64,000 nucleotides of DNA from Candidatus Tectimicrobiota bacterium. GTDB taxonomy: Bacteria; Tectomicrobia; Entotheonellia; Entotheonellales; Entotheonellaceae. The DNA is taken from positions 124,001 through 188,000 of the forward strand of contig BPKO01000006.1 in assembly GCA_026005175.1 (NCBI GenBank). Reading direction: 5' to 3'. Below, piece after piece: positions 752-64,000 of this stretch (position 1 is the stretch's first letter; each line of letters begins with the position of its first letter). Below the pieces are notes generated by a model, which was given only the letters and a program-made list of their open reading frames with translations, ran no database searches and was not told the DNA's origin. Position numbers and translations under genes: made by a program.

Positions 752-3025
752 GTGCGCCGCGCTCGCTGCTGGGCTGTGGTGCTGGGGCTGCTGGTGGGGC
801 TGCGCGCTCCGGGGTGGGCGCGCACCCTGGTGGTGTCGCCGCAAGGGCCTTTCACTACCCCGGCGGCGGCTCTCGCTGCTGCCCAAGCCGGCGATACCAT
901 CGAGGTGCAAGGGGGCACCTACGCCGGGCCGCTGGTGGTGGACAAGCGGGTGCGGCTCGTCGGCCGCGACTGGCCGGTGCTCGACGGCGGCGGCCGCGGC
1001 ACGGTGGTCAAGCTGACCGCTGCCGGCATCGTCTTCAGCGGCTTTGTCATCCGCGGCAGCGGGGCCTCGCTCGACCAGGAAAACTCCGGTATCGCCGTAG
1101 AAGCGCCCGACGTGGTAGTGGCACACAACCGGCTCGCAGACACCCTCTTTGGCATTTACCTGCGCCAGGCACCAGGGAGTGTCATCCGCGGCAACGTTAT
1201 TGACGGCAAGGCGCTGCCCGTGCCGCGGCGCGGTGACGCCATCCGCGTCTGGTACAGCAACGGCGTGCACATCACCGGCAACACGGTGCGCCGCGGCCGC
1301 GACGTGGTGCTCTGGTATTCGACGGCCCTCAGCGTGCGCGACAACGTGGTCCAAGACGGCCGCTACGGCCTGCACTTCATGTACTGCGACGATGCCCGCA
1401 TCGAGCACAACCTGCTCAGCGGCAACTCCGTAGGGGCCTTTCTCATGTACAGCCGCCGGCTGCACCTGCACCGCAACACCATCGCCCACAACCGCGGCCC
1501 CAGCGGCTACGGGGTGGGGCTCAAGGACATGGACGATGCCGTGCTCGCGGCCAATCTCTTTTTGGACAACCGCGTCGGCGCCTTTGTCGACAACTCGCCG
1601 CGCGAAGTGACCAGCACCACCCGCTTTCAGGACAACGTCTTTGCCTTCAACGACACCGGCGTCAGCCTGCTGCCTTCGGTGCGGCGCAACTTCTTCAGCA
1701 ACAACAGCTTCATCGACAACGGCGAGCACGTGCAGGTGGCCGGCGGTGGGCAGCTGCGCGGCAACGTCTGGCGCGGCAACTTCTGGAGCGACTACGCCGG
1801 CTTTGACGCCGACGGCGACGGCACGGGCGACCTGCCTTACCGTGCCGAGCGCCTCTTCGAAGACCTGCTCGACCGCTATCCCTCGCTGCGCCTCTTTCTG
1901 GGAAGCCCGGCCGCGCAGGCCATCGACTTTGCAGCGCGCGCCTTCCCTCTGGTAAGGCCGCAGCCCAAGCTGGTGGACCCGGCACCGCGGATGGCCCCGG
2001 CGCTGCCGCAGGGGTTGCCTGCCCTGCCGCGGCCGCGGCGCTGGCCCCTGGCCCTCAGCGCCACCGGGCTGCTGGCCGCCGGCGCCCTGCTTGCCCTCTT
2101 TACCCGCTGGCCGCCGCGCGTGCCGGCGCCTGCTGCCCCGCCCTCCGGAAGCGATCCCATGCTCGCGGTCAAGGCGCTGACGGTGCGCTACGGCTCGCTG
2201 CGGGCCGTGGCGCAGGTCTCCTTTGAGGTGCGCGCCGGCGAGGCGGTGGCCTTGTGGGGGCCCAACGGCGCCGGCAAGACCACGGTGCTGCGCTGCCTGC
2301 TCGGCCTCTTGCCTTACCAGGGGGAGGTGCGGGTTGCCGGCCTTGACCCGCGCCGCCAGGGCAAAGCAGCGCGCCGCCATGTGGGCTTCGTGCCGCAGGA
2401 GCTGCACTTCCACGACGACCTCAGCGTGCAGGAAACGCTGCAGCTCTACGCCCGGCTGAAAAAAGCCGTCCCTGACGCCGCCCTGCTGCAGCGCCTGGGG
2501 CTGGCCGCCTGCCTGCCGCAGCGCGTAGGGGAGCTGTCGGGCGGTATGAAGCAGCGCCTGGCACTGGCCGTTGCTCTGCTGGCCGATCCGCCGCTGCTGC
2601 TGCTCGACGAGCCCACTGCCAATCTTGACGCCGCGGCGCGTCAGGACTTCCTGCGCCTGGTGGCGGCGCTGCGGGCCAGCGGCAAGACCCTGATTTTCTC
2701 CTCGCACCGCCAAGAAGAAGTGCTGGCCCTTGCCGACCGCGTGCTGGTCTTGGACAAAGGGCGCTTGGTGGCCGACGCCGCGCCGGCGGCGCTGCGCCAG
2801 CTCCCGGCCTGGCAGGTCACCTTGCGCCTGCACCTCCCGGGTGACCGCCTTGAAGCGGCGCGTGCCACCCTGGCGGCGCACGGCTACGCCGCCCACCGCA
2901 ACGGCCGCAGCCTGTGTGTTGCCGTGCCTCCTGGGGACCGCGGCCGGCCCATTGCCTTGCTGCTGGAGGCGGGCATTCCGGTGCCGGACTTCGACCTCGA
3001 GCCGGGCAACCACGAGGAGGCGTGA
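752..3025 (+). CDS. nosD: NosD-NosF in-frame fusion: periplasmic copper-maturation protein joined to ABC ATPase
   Basis: One open frame of 757 residues encodes two normally separate maturation factors of nitrous-oxide reductase. Residues 1-25 form a signal peptide. Residues about 30-400 are right-handed beta-helix (NosD/CASH) repeats rich in N and G, as in DGGGRGTVVKL and RDNVVQDG. A membrane helix lies near 428-452. From Met470 (ATG 2159) there is a complete NosF-type ABC ATPase with Walker A GPNGAGKTT, signature LSGGMKQR, Walker B LLLLDEPTANLD and a switch histidine (SSHR). No stop separates the parts; the linker is Pro/Ala-rich. The topology works: NosD outside, helix, ATPase inside. Start is GTG 752 with GAAAGGGAG upstream. 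An internal restart at ATG 2159, with weak upstream GGAAG, could also release free NosF. Confidence 0.85.
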   Translation: MRRARCWAVVLGLLVGLRAPGWARTLVVSPQGPFTTPAAALAAAQAGDTIEVQGGTYAGPLVVDKRVRLVGRDWPVLDGGGRGTVVKLTAAGIVFSGFVIRGSGASLDQENSGIAVEAPDVVVAHNRLADTLFGIYLRQAPGSVIRGNVIDGKALPVPRRGDAIRVWYSNGVHITGNTVRRGRDVVLWYSTALSVRDNVVQDGRYGLHFMYCDDARIEHNLLSGNSVGAFLMYSRRLHLHRNTIAHNRGPSGYGVGLKDMDDAVLAANLFLDNRVGAFVDNSPREVTSTTRFQDNVFAFNDTGVSLLPSVRRNFFSNNSFIDNGEHVQVAGGGQLRGNVWRGNFWSDYAGFDADGDGTGDLPYRAERLFEDLLDRYPSLRLFLGSPAAQAIDFAARAFPLVRPQPKLVDPAPRMAPALPQGLPALPRPRRWPLALSATGLLAAGALLALFTRWPPRVPAPAAPPSGSDPMLAVKALTVRYGSLRAVAQVSFEVRAGEAVALWGPNGAGKTTVLRCLLGLLPYQGEVRVAGLDPRRQGKAARRHVGFVPQELHFHDDLSVQETLQLYARLKKAVPDAALLQRLGLAACLPQRVGELSGGMKQRLALAVALLADPPLLLLDEPTANLDAAARQDFLRLVAALRASGKTLIFSSHRQEEVLALADRVLVLDKGRLVADAAPAALRQLPAWQVTLRLHLPGDRLEAARATLAAHGYAAHRNGRSLCVAVPPGDRGRPIALLLEAGIPVPDFDLEPGNHEEA

Positions 3026-3028
3026 GCC

Positions 3029-3863
3029 ATGCCCGATCTGACCGGTGTCCTTACCCTGGCGCAGAAAGAACTGCGCGACGCGCGGCGCAACCGCTGGTTT
3101 GTACTCTATAGCGTCGCTTTTGCCGGCCTGGCCCTGGCTCTGGCCGGGCTGGCCCTGGCCGGGGCAGGAAGCTACGGTCTGGCCGGCTTCAGCCGTACCG
3201 CCGCCAGCCTCATTAACCTGGTGATGCTCGTCGTGCCCCTCATGGGGCTGACGCTTGGCGCGCTGAGCCTGACCGGCGAGCGCGAGAAGGGCACGCTGCT
3301 TTATTTGCTGGCGCAACCCATCACGACAACGGAAGTGCTGCTGGGCAAGTCTCTAGGGCTGGCCCTGGCGCTGCTGCTGACCCTGGCAGGGGGCTTTGGC
3401 CTCAGCGGCCTGCTCATCGCCTGGCAGGGGGGGCACCGCAGCCGCCAGCACCTACCTGGCGGTGGTGGCCCTGGCGTTTCTTCTTGCCCTGGCCAGCCTC
3501 GGCCTTGGCCTGCTGCTTTCGGCTGCGGTGCGGCGCGCCGCCACTGCCCTGGGGCTGGCCCTCTTCTTGTGGCTGGTGCTGGTGCTCTTTGGCGATCTGG
3601 GCCTTATGGGCACTGCCGTGGTGCTCAGGCTCGGCCCCGGCGAGCTCCTGGCCCTGACCCTGCTCAACCCGCTGCAGGGGTTCAAAATGGCCGCCATCCT
3701 GGCCACCGGCAGCAGCCTGGAGGTGCTGGGGCCGGCAGGACTCTACGCCATGCGCACATACGGCGCGCTGCTGCTGCCGCTGCTGCCAGGGCTGCTGCTG
3801 CTGTGGGCAGCGGTACCGCTGCTGCTCACCGCCCTGGTATTTCGCCATCGAGGAGCCCGGTGA
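3029..3863 (+). CDS. nosY: NosY permease of the Cu-site maturation ABC transporter, frame broken at a G7 run
   Basis: NosY is the membrane partner of NosF and, with NosD, supports assembly of the CuZ sulfide-copper centre. The first part (MPDLTGVLTLAQKELRDARR) has the usual ABC-2 permease start and ends at LLIAWQGG. The rest, from about GTAAASTYLAVVALAFLLAL to FRHRGAR and TGA 3861-3863, lies one base forward. The break is in seven Gs at 3427-3433; six Gs would give one continuous permease of about 277 residues with six helices. The stop overlaps the ATG of nosL (TGATG). The start follows the fused nosDF gene by three bases. Given many similar breaks in this window, an assembly or sequencing insertion is the simplest reading. 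Confidence 0.8.
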
Positions 3864-4354
3864 TGTGGAACGCCATGGCCGTGGTGCTGCTGCTCGCCTT
3901 GCTAGGTGCCGGCTGCCGTTCCTCGGTAGACCCCGACGCCCCGCCCGACATCCGCTACGGCGAAGACGCCTGCGATCAGTGCCGCATGCTCATCAGCGAG
4001 CCGCGCTACGCCGCGGCTTACGTGACGCGGCAGGGAGAGGTGCGGCGCTTTGACGACATTGGCGACATGCTGCTTTACGACGCAGCCCACGGCGAGGAAG
4101 TGCTCAGGTTCTGGGTGCACGACTACGCCACCGCGGCCTGGCTGCCGGCGGCGCAGGCGGTCTTTGTTTACAGCCGGGCGCTGTCCACTCCCATGGCGCA
4201 TGGCATTGTTGCCTTCGGTGACCCGCAGCCGGCCAGAGAGCTGGCCGCCCGGGTGCAGGGAGAGATTTTAAGCTTTGCCGAGCTGCGCCGCCGCGCCGCC
4301 GCGGGCCACCTGAAGGTCGAGCACGGGCCTGCGGGAAGCCACACCCACCGGTGA
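3863..4354 (+). CDS. nosL: NosL copper-binding lipoprotein
   Basis: NosL is an outer-facing lipoprotein that delivers Cu(I) for maturation of nitrous-oxide reductase. The 163-residue product starts with a lipoprotein signal ending LLGAGC (lipidated Cys18). It carries the family metal motif CDQCRM at 37-42, followed by ISEPRYAAAY, FDDIGDML and WVHDY. The ATG overlaps the nosY stop as TGATG, so translation is coupled. It is the last gene of the cluster; the next gene converges on it ten bases downstream. Both cysteines and the methionine of the copper motif are present, so it should be functional. Confidence 0.9.
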   Translation: MWNAMAVVLLLALLGAGCRSSVDPDAPPDIRYGEDACDQCRMLISEPRYAAAYVTRQGEVRRFDDIGDMLLYDAAHGEEVLRFWVHDYATAAWLPAAQAVFVYSRALSTPMAHGIVAFGDPQPARELAARVQGEILSFAELRRRAAAGHLKVEHGPAGSHTHR

Positions 4355-4364
4355 GCCGCCGCGT

Positions 4365-5987
4365 CTATGGCCACAGGGCGCGGGCCAGCCGCGCGTCGCG
4401 GCCGTAGATGTCGCGGCGAAAGTGCACCGTGCCGTCCGCTTCTGCCCACGCCGTCCAGTAAAGCAAATGCACCGGGATGGGCTGCGGCAGCACCACCGTT
4501 TGCTCCTTCCCCCGTGCGAGGGCCTCGAGGATAGTGTCGCGGTTCCACTTGGGATGGTCCTTGAGCAAGTAGAAGGCCAGCTCTAGTGCTTTCTCGAGGC
4601 GGATGCAGCCCGAGCTGAAGGTCCGCTCCGACTTGGCAAACAGCTCCCGTGCCGGCGTGTCGTGGAGGTAGACGTTAAAGGGGTTAGGGAACATGAACTT
4701 GACCCGCCCCAGGGCGTTTTGGGGACCGGGGTCCTGGCGCAGGCGGTAGGGAAAGCGCTGCGCCGTAACGCGGGACCAGTCGATGCGCTGGGGATCGAGC
4801 TCACGGGTCTCGGCGCCCCAGCCCTGCAACACCCGGATCCCCTGGCGAGTCAGGTAAGTGGGGTCTTTCTGAATAAGGGGCAGGAGGTCCTGCACGGCAA
4901 TGCGCGGCGGCACGTGCCAGGAGGGGTTGAGCACGAGATAGGTCATGGTGCTGCTAAATACCGGGGTGCGGCGATAGTCACGGCCAACGACGACCCGCAT
5001 GTGCAGCACGCGGCGTCCCTCCTCGACGACTTCCAGCTCAAAACTGGCAATATTCACCAGCACGTAGCGCCGCCCAAGGTGAGCGGGCAGCCAGCGCCAC
5101 CGCTCGAGGTTGAGCGCGATCTGGCGCACGCGCTGGGGAGCCGGGACGTTGAGTGCCGCCAGCGTCGCCGCCCCAACGATGCCGTCTGCTTCCAGGCCGT
5201 GCCGGCGCTGGAAGCGGCGCACCGCCTCTTCTAGGGCTGCATCGAAATCCCCCCCGGCACCTGCTGTGGAGGGCAAGTCTCCGGTGGCGGCCAGCCGTCG
5301 GCGCAAGGCGGCAACCCGCGGGCCAGCATCGCCGCGCCGCAGGGCAGGGCCGGTGGACACGTGCGGCCAGCCGCCGGCAGCAGCCAGGGCGCGGTAGCGT
5401 GCCAGGGCCGCGCGCAGCCAGGCATAGCCGGGATGGGCAGGCAGCAGGGCCTGAAGACTGGCGCTGATCGTGTCGGTTTCCAAAGCCCGCTGAAGCACGG
5501 CAGCCAGGTCGGCCTCACGCCGGTTGGCATGCCACTCCGGGTCAAGGCGCACCGGGTCCACCTTCCCGGCCAGCAAGTGGGCGCCGTAGGTCAGAAAGGC
5601 GTCGGTGAGCAACAAGTCAAGGTCGGTAAGCAGCGCCGGCTGGGGGTGCTGGCGGGCTGCGGCAAGCAGTGCCTCGAGCTGACGGAGGTGGTAGGCCCCG
5701 GGGTCGAGCCCCTCACGCTCGGCGTCGCGGATGGCCGCAACGAGCTCCTCAGCCCGCGGCAGCAGGCCTTCGGCGCTGCTCCAGGCGGGCCAGTAGCCGC
5801 GGCGCTCGTAAAAGCGGGGCAGCACGACCGTCGCGTAAAGGGGCGTGCTGCCCACGCGCAGGGGCAGCGATTCTCCAGCCGCTTCGATGCGGCTGCGCAG
5901 CCGCTCGCGCACCGCTTCCGGAAGGCTTTGGGCCCTGGCGAGAAAACCCACGCTGACCACCAGCCAGATCGCCAGGAGCCACCGCAT
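4365..5987 (-). CDS. L,D-transpeptidase of the YcbB/LdtD type
   Basis: This 540-residue exported enzyme should form 3-3 cross-links in peptidoglycan or attach proteins to it. After a signal peptide (MRWLLAIWLVVSVGFLARA) comes an N-terminal scaffold region, then a peptidoglycan-binding repeat (about 230-300, with LRRGDAGPRVAALRRRL), then the YkuD catalytic domain. The active-site string HDTP...SSGCIRLE is complete, with Cys near residue 458. Domain order and length match the YcbB family. I chose ATG 5987, which has AAGGAGGAGG upstream and begins the signal peptide, over an upstream in-frame start. It follows the cyclase gene by 19 bases and probably shares its message. Confidence 0.88.
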   Translation of the reverse strand: MRWLLAIWLVVSVGFLARAQSLPEAVRERLRSRIEAAGESLPLRVGSTPLYATVVLPRFYERRGYWPAWSSAEGLLPRAEELVAAIRDAEREGLDPGAYHLRQLEALLAAARQHPQPALLTDLDLLLTDAFLTYGAHLLAGKVDPVRLDPEWHANRREADLAAVLQRALETDTISASLQALLPAHPGYAWLRAALARYRALAAAGGWPHVSTGPALRRGDAGPRVAALRRRLAATGDLPSTAGAGGDFDAALEEAVRRFQRRHGLEADGIVGAATLAALNVPAPQRVRQIALNLERWRWLPAHLGRRYVLVNIASFELEVVEEGRRVLHMRVVVGRDYRRTPVFSSTMTYLVLNPSWHVPPRIAVQDLLPLIQKDPTYLTRQGIRVLQGWGAETRELDPQRIDWSRVTAQRFPYRLRQDPGPQNALGRVKFMFPNPFNVYLHDTPARELFAKSERTFSSGCIRLEKALELAFYLLKDHPKWNRDTILEALARGKEQTVVLPQPIPVHLLYWTAWAEADGTVHFRRDIYGRDARLARALWP

Positions 5988-62356: not shown

Positions 62357-62411
62357 CGCGGCATCAGAGAAACCGGGCGCCGCGCGGCGGCGCCCTGCAG
62401 AGGAGCAGACC

Positions 62412-62912
62412 ATGGCAACGCCCCAGCCCGAGCCGCAGCCCATGCGGCGCGAGATCGTGTTTACCGCCGAAGTGCAGACGCTGACGCCCATGCTTAAAGT
62501 GGCCACCGTGAGCCGCCAGGGGCAAGACCATTACACGTTTGCCTGCGACGAGGGTCCGGCCCTGGGCGGGCTGGGCTCGGCCCCCACGCCGCTGGCTTAC
62601 TTTACCGCCGCCGTGGCTTTTTGACTGCTGACGCAGGTGTCCCGGTACGGGCACATGCTCAACCTGCGCGTCGACAAGGCGCGCGTGCACGTGGAAGCCA
62701 CCTTTCGCCTCAGCGGCTCGGTGCTCGCCGACACCGTGCAGGCCGAGGCGGTCGGCGTCACCACCCGCCTGGAGCTCGAGTCTCCCGAAGACCCGGCACG
62801 CCTGGCACGCCTGGTGCGGCTGGCCGAGCGCGGCTGCTTCGTCATGCAGGCCCTGCAGCGGCCGGTGCCGGTGACCACCGCCACCCTGGTCAACGGCACC
62901 CCTCTGGCCTGA
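62412..62912 (+). CDS. OsmC-like selenoprotein, Sec at codon 71 (TGA 62622-62624)
   Basis: Read through one TGA, the frame encodes 166 residues of an OsmC-family peroxidase/thiol protein. Before the TGA are ACDEGPALGGLGSAPTPLAYF and TAAVAF; after it come LLTQVSRYGHML and DPARLARLVRLAERGCFVMQAL. In OsmC proteins the helix after the PTPL motif carries the catalytic Cys, in strings like AFC-x-x-TQ...RYA; the TGA falls exactly there. Cys142 is the partner thiol of the family. A SECIS-like hairpin follows at 62633-62658. OsmC-like Sec proteins have been reported in metagenome surveys, as I recall. The start has CAGAGGAG. It is divergent from the peptide transporter and ends two bases from the AOR gene. 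Confidence 0.85.
62633..62658 (+). promoter_or_regulatory. Bacterial SECIS-like hairpin after the Sec codon
   Basis: Stem: GCA (62633-62635) with TGC (62656-62658); a G/A mismatch; GTG (62637-62639) with CAC (62652-62654); a bulged T at 62640; CCC (62641-62643) with GGG (62649-62651); loop GGTAC (62644-62648). The bulged U one arm below a GGU loop is the feature SelB recognises in the fdhF element. The loop starts 19 bases after the TGA. It lies inside the coding region, as usual in bacteria. Confidence 0.75.
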
Positions 62913-62914
62913 GG

Positions 62915-64000
62915 CTAGGCCGGCACCTCCAGGCCGTAGGCGGCGATCTGCGCCTCGAAGGCCTCGAAGACGCGGCGGCGCAGCTCGGCCATAAACTCCG
63001 GGGTGATAAAGTGCGGCAGCTGCACGTTGGGGTTGCGCTGGTAGGCGCGCGCCGGCAGGTCGTAGTCCTCGAGCGTCGTGCCTTGGCGGCGCTCCAGCAG
63101 CAAGCCGCGCAGGTAAGTGCGCTGCGTGGCGTGCCACAGGTCGTCGTGGGTAATGTCCAGGCCGTAGACCTCTTTGAAGACCGGCTCGATCACCCGGTCG
63201 GGGGTGCCGGCGAACTTGCACAGCCCCAGCAAGTCGTCGCGGGTGTAGTAAATGCCGCGGTTGACGATGGCATCCACCCAGTAGTCAAGGTCGGTCTTGC
63301 CTTCAAAGACCAGCAGCAAGAAGGTGCGCATCGACATGTGGCCGCCGGCAATAGCAAAGGGGTAGCCGGGGTTGGTTTCCGGCAAGTACGCGGGCAACTC
63401 CAGCCCCTTGCAGTGCATGGCATACGCCGTCTCGCCCAGAGACTCGGCCAGGCGCTTGACGCCGCGCCCGAGCTCTGGCAGCTCGCCAGCAGCAGCGCGG
63501 CGAATGAGGCGGCAGGGCCCCCTGCGAAGTCGCCAAAGGTAACGCCCTCGAGGATGGGGCGCTCGGGGTGCTGGCGGTTGTAGTCCATGACGTAGCCCAG
63601 GGTGGCCCCCAGGCTGATGGCGTCAAAGCCCAGCTGGTCGACCAGCTCGATGATCTCCAGAGCCTGCTGCTGGTCGTAGATTCCCAGGTTGATGGCCAGC
63701 AGGTCGACAGGCTCGTAGTCGACTTTGGTGTAGAACTTGCCCGCCTTGCGCTGCCCGTTGACCGGCACCGCCTCGTAGACGTTCTTGTGGCAGGCGATGC
63801 CGCACTTGAAGCACGACTCGTCTTTGATCACGTAATTTTGTTCGACCGAGCTGCGGTAAAGGGCCACCGGCTTGTCGTCGCCCTGCGGCCAGAAGTTTTT
63901 CTCGGGCAGCGCCCCCAGGGGGTGCAGGGCCGGCCACGTTGCGCCAGGTGCCGCCGGCGCCGCCGCCCTTGTCTGGATCGCGGTAGTTGCGCGAGCCTTC
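62915..64000 (-). CDS. Aldehyde:ferredoxin oxidoreductase, partial, two frame breaks
   Basis: The C-terminal part of a tungsten-pterin enzyme; it runs off the right edge. Visible parts are GTWRNVA (edge side), VEQNYVIKDESCFKCGIACHKNVYE with CxxCxxxC for the [4Fe-4S] cluster, and IIELVDQLGFDAISLGATLGYVMDY. Then come GELPELGRGVKRLAESLGE and MHCKGLELPAYLPETNPGYPFA to LEVPA. Two single-base changes break the frame: an extra base in GGCCGGCC at 63928-63934, and one G missing from the G5 run at 63522-63518. Repairing both gives a continuous AOR-family protein. It ends two bases from the selenoprotein stop (convergent). Substrate unknown. Confidence 0.82.

Follow-up and report, generated by a model that had tools for sequence, protein, structure and literature searches.

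An OsmC-like protein with a predicted selenocysteine at its reactive position in a Candidatus Tectimicrobiota genome

The locus and its read-through frame

The DNA analyzed here is a 64,000-nucleotide stretch of a Candidatus Tectimicrobiota contig (BPKO01000006.1), referred to as the window. It contains an open reading frame that starts with an ATG at 62412 and is interrupted by a single in-frame TGA. When this codon is read as selenocysteine (Sec), the frame encodes an OsmC-like protein of 166 residues. The features of the locus are as follows.

62401–62405, + strand: probable ribosome-binding site AGGAG, 6 nt before the ATG (sequence)
62412–62912, + strand: predicted Sec-containing OsmC-like gene, 166 aa, Sec at residue 71 (read-through translation, Pfam OsmC, NCBIfam NF041052)
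62622–62624, + strand: in-frame TGA, predicted to be read as Sec at residue 71 (FULLTQ, UxxT motif; same codon in homologues, Cys in 3cje and distant relatives)
62637–62654, + strand: predicted SECIS hairpin within the coding region (folding, synonymous constraint, compensatory changes)
62637–62639/62652–62654, + strand: lower stem of the hairpin
62640, + strand: bulge
62641–62644/62648–62651, + strand: upper stem
62645–62647, + strand: loop
62835–62837, + strand: codon of Cys142, probable resolving cysteine (ERGCFVMQAL; invariant in 14/14 aligned sequences; in helix 128–143 or at its end)
62910–62912, + strand: terminal stop TGA (sequence)

The frame, its one TGA and Cys142 had been placed at these coordinates by a first-pass annotation made from the DNA letters alone, and the sequence and its translation agree. 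The context of the TGA is AAVAFULLTQVSRYGHML. The annotation had also held that the OsmC fold continues beyond this codon, and this is borne out by the Pfam OsmC profile (PF02566), whose match bridges the TGA, covering residues 54–156 with 58.5 bits against a cut-off of 27.5. The read-through protein scores 172.6 bits with the NCBIfam model NF041052, "OsmC-related (seleno)protein," which is 78 bits above the cut-off of 95. At the 67% GC of the window, 70 of its 1214 TGAs have flanks at least as open on both sides, so the open read-through frame is weak evidence, near what is expected by chance. An open frame as evidence of Sec was rejected on this ground.

The upstream neighbor is a divergent gene for a solute-binding protein, and downstream lies a convergent gene for an aldehyde ferredoxin oxidoreductase (AFOR). 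The AFOR_C gene (62915–64000, − strand, continuing into locus L068 at 2916–5031) is spread over several frames. The apparent frameshifts reflect decay of the gene or else indels introduced in assembly.

Standard gene callers would cut the OsmC-like protein at residue 70 or give it a late start at the GTG at 62637, so genomes of this kind are likely to be misannotated at the locus. Assignment of the Sec codon, the SECIS element, the Sec machinery, the OsmC family and fold, and the conservation of Cys142 is established here by comparison with related sequences, as described below.

Conservation of the TGA codon

A scan of GTDB contigs yielded 14 Rokubacteria loci, 13 of which contain the full gene. 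The proteins encoded at these loci share 61–66% identity with the window protein over the full length, and the TGA is found at exactly the same codon in 13/13. A profile search of 386 genomes revealed nine more divergent copies in five distant genomes; in every copy, a single TGA occupies the equivalent position of the motif U(L/I)LT. Since 22 homologous genes besides the window gene have a TGA at this codon, its conservation is far beyond chance. The scores of NF041052 across the 386 genomes are bimodal: each of the 10 matches of at least 145 bits, the window gene included, contains one TGA, and none of the matches from 95 down to 51 bits does.

The column of the TGA is occupied by Cys in the distant OsmC relatives that were inspected, for example in GIAFCFMTQ and LIGCLGIM and in the GCVMTQ of Protein Data Bank entry 3cje. 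This alignment supports the earlier proposal that the TGA stands at the reactive Cys of the family, and a UGA at a column held by Cys or Sec in homologues is what characterizes a bacterial selenoprotein. Residues 71 and 142 are both invariant in the close set (14/14 aligned sequences).

A TGA in this position could also arise as a nonsense mutation in a pseudogene or as a miscalled TGC or TGT, and the adjoining AFOR gene, which seems broken over several frames, points to indels or decay nearby. Against this, the protein is strongly conserved downstream of the TGA, the hairpin is constrained, and the conserved TGA recurs in the 22 other genes, which come from assemblies made independently. A sequencing error or gene decay is thereby ruled out. 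We therefore give this explanation a negligible probability, and the reading of the codon as TGA, on which the first-pass annotation depended, holds.

Two genomes of one family (f139) contain three Sec-OsmC paralogues each (L041, L060, and L065 in G278; L042, L061, and L064 in G141). Another genome, G351, encodes a Sec-OsmC together with a Cys form that shares its xxTQ motif (CFMTQ); the two make a natural Sec/Cys pair (L039 and L062). A phylogenetic tree is compatible with either inheritance or transfer of the window copy relative to Rokubacteria; the branch support is 85/85, with long-branch warnings.

The downstream hairpin and the selenocysteine machinery

The hairpin, GUG-U-CCCG-GUA-CGGG-CAC, starts 12 nt downstream of the TGA. 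Folding energy alone does not set it apart (z = −1.25 to −1.76), and comparative tests were used in place of this non-significant single-sequence measure. Among 14 homologues, the mean synonymous diversity at conserved codons is 0.12 in the hairpin versus 0.40 elsewhere (Mann-Whitney one-sided p = 4e-4). The 14 close homologues on their own are too alike for pair counting to be informative, and this was resolved by adding the distant copies. In the resulting set of 17 diverse sequences, the upper stem is paired in 94% of cells. The stem pair at alignment columns 21–29 is C-G in 9/17 and G-C in 8/17 and is broken in none. Its covariation score is 0.297, a value reached by 0/500 shuffles, and slid controls give at most 0.069. 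In several copies, column 21 flips by a synonymous exchange of Ser codons (TCC/TCG), and the matching change at column 29 replaces Gly with Ala. Such a combination is difficult to account for by anything other than base pairing. The covariation rests on few changes, though in divergent lineages, since sequence counts are not independent events.

The conserved features of the hairpin are the upper stem and a loop with a nearly invariant GU; among the distant copies, only some maintain the pairing of the lower stem. The first-pass annotation had described a hairpin with a bulged U. The hairpin itself stands, with its constraint and covariation, but the bulged U, present in the window, occurs in only 10/17 aligned relatives. 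A search of the genome with the Rfam model SECIS_1 (RF00031) and a scan of the locus with all Rfam families gave no useful match. SECIS_1 also missed the E. coli control, and thus the lack of a match is not evidence of absence. A hairpin with a small G-containing loop immediately downstream of the UGA is characteristic of bacterial selenoprotein genes, and the constraint and the compensatory changes are as expected of a bacterial SECIS. We consider this hairpin a clear case of covariation for the SECIS of the family.

The genome bin from which the window derives (3.99 Mb, 14 contigs) contains the complete set of selA, selB, selC, and selD known from bacteria that make selenoproteins. A tRNA-Sec with anticodon TCA (UCA) is encoded on contig C3 at 375030–375122; it scores 76.5 bits, above the gathering score, and ARAGORN concurs. 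On the same contig, selA (637 bits) and selB (392 bits) adjoin within 363500–369000. The selD gene is on contig C9 (379 bits) and is itself interrupted by an in-frame TGA (CAGUASKMSP); in many bacteria, SelD is known to be a selenoprotein. These genes agree with the earlier suggestion that the organism makes Sec. Because the bin has a completeness of 77% and a contamination of 3.6%, and because the OsmC-like gene and the machinery are on different contigs, their origin in the same organism is likely rather than certain. This genome also encodes three further selenoprotein candidates of the thioredoxin/peroxiredoxin type, with in-frame TGA at the redox-motif positions TSLUT, WUPTC, and WUPFC (L032, L033, and L036; C3:28241–29165 and C4:90489–90740). 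Those with TSLUT and WUPTC are neighbors on C3.

Alternatively, the TGA might be reassigned or suppressed and read as another amino acid such as Trp, but this is extremely improbable, as the Sec-OsmC gene and selA both end in TGA, relatives have Cys at this column, and the TGA is followed by a SECIS-like hairpin in a genome with the full Sec machinery and a UCA tRNA-Sec. Taken as a Sec codon, the UGA would be decoded when SelB with Sec-tRNA(UCA) binds the hairpin 12 nt past it, so that Sec is inserted at position 71.

Fold, possible function, and relation to known proteins

Judged from these sequence comparisons, the gene almost certainly encodes a genuine selenoprotein of the OsmC-like family NF041052. 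It is a new member of a known family, since it exceeds the cut-off of a dedicated NCBIfam model and OsmC-like selenoproteins have been published. That such proteins had been reported before was correctly stated in the first-pass annotation (NF041052; PMC1088965).

An AlphaFold2 model built with 14 sequences has moderate confidence (pLDDT 70.6), which is low at residues 44–57. Its best matches by fold in the Protein Data Bank are OsmC-like proteins, with 3cje first and 13–21% identity in the fold matches, in line with the Pfam profile match to the OsmC superfamily. In Ohr/OsmC proteins, the two reactive cysteines sit on two central helices. The predicted model likewise has its two redox residues in two central helices, with Sec71 in helix 60–82 and Cys142 in, or at the end of, helix 128–143. 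None of the Ohr/OsmC subfamily models matched up to E 0.01, where NF041052 is the sole NCBIfam match, and positions for the classical Arg/Glu catalytic residues of Ohr could not be assigned in the window protein. For this last reason, peroxidase activity is an assignment by analogy, and we consider thiol/selenol peroxidase chemistry probable rather than certain.

We infer the following catalytic cycle, together with its substrate and reductant. Sec71, on a long central helix, would be the peroxidatic residue by analogy and would attack a hydroperoxide or a similar electrophile. Cys142 would then resolve the selenenic acid through an Se-S bond, which a dithiol would subsequently reduce. A use in organic-peroxide defense, as suggested in the first-pass annotation, would be consistent with this cycle.

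At three Rokubacteria loci, 9 nt separate the end of a gene for a Sec-containing peroxiredoxin-like (Prx-like) protein (GRWUPYC) from the start of the OsmC gene downstream (L011, ending at 3967; L018, ending at 3967; and L019, 1578–2255). At a fourth (L014), the Sec Prx-like gene (2341–3024) is about 1 kb upstream of the Sec-OsmC. At L022, a Sec Prx-like frame (3536–4159) continues directly into the final third of the OsmC protein, and this joined frame is either a deletion fusion or a misassembly. A Sec Prx-like gene was sought beside the window gene and was not found there; the Prx-like genes of this genome are on other contigs. The adjacency in Rokubacteria supports a peroxide-related role. 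A more tentative proposal is that the Sec-OsmC and the adjacent Sec Prx-like protein form a two-selenoprotein operon for peroxide handling in Rokubacteria, and that the Sec form may be obligate in the clade, since no Cys version was found among the close members.

The protein might instead be a genuine selenoprotein with a job other than peroxide reduction, such as selenol/thiol metabolite chemistry or persulfide handling. The family is remote from characterized Ohr/OsmC proteins, as the identities in the fold matches indicate, its NCBIfam name is merely OsmC_like_Se, and the window gene is outside any obvious peroxide operon. The fold, the Sec/Cys pair, and the adjoining Sec Prx-like gene in several Rokubacteria argue for thiol peroxidase chemistry, and we regard a different role as the less likely of the two, though one of appreciable weight.

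OsmC-like selenoproteins were described in the Sargasso Sea survey of 2005, with three sequences and the motif UxxT (PMC1088965), which the window protein shares as ULLT. The GOS survey contained five sequences (PMC2398784), and reviews also list the family (PMC13188914; PMC9312934). A 2026 review reports a very large selenoproteome of 63 genes in a genome of Methylomirabilota, the phylum containing Rokubacteria, without detail on OsmC (PMC13188914). The window protein resembles the NF041052, Sargasso, and GOS family in belonging to OsmC, in having Sec at the position of the reactive Cys, and in having a SECIS just downstream. Whereas the two surveys covered marine metagenomes, the window and Rokubacteria copies are from other lineages, and two genomes of one family have three paralogues each.

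The nearest known structure, both by sequence (E 2.7e-12) and by fold (rank 1), is 3cje, the OsmC-like hydroperoxide resistance protein Jann_2040 from Jannaschia. It has CxxT at the position of UxxT and the second Cys in GCF, but it contains Cys instead of Sec and is 21% identical in the fold alignment. Ohr and OsmC of E. coli and other bacteria share the fold and the two reactive positions in two central helices, although they are remote in sequence. What the present analysis adds to prior knowledge is the lineage, covariation in the SECIS, the sets of paralogues found in G141 and G278, and the neighboring Prx-like gene. A selenoprotein family with few published members, from marine metagenomes, is thereby extended to a poorly sampled bacterial lineage and to Rokubacteria.
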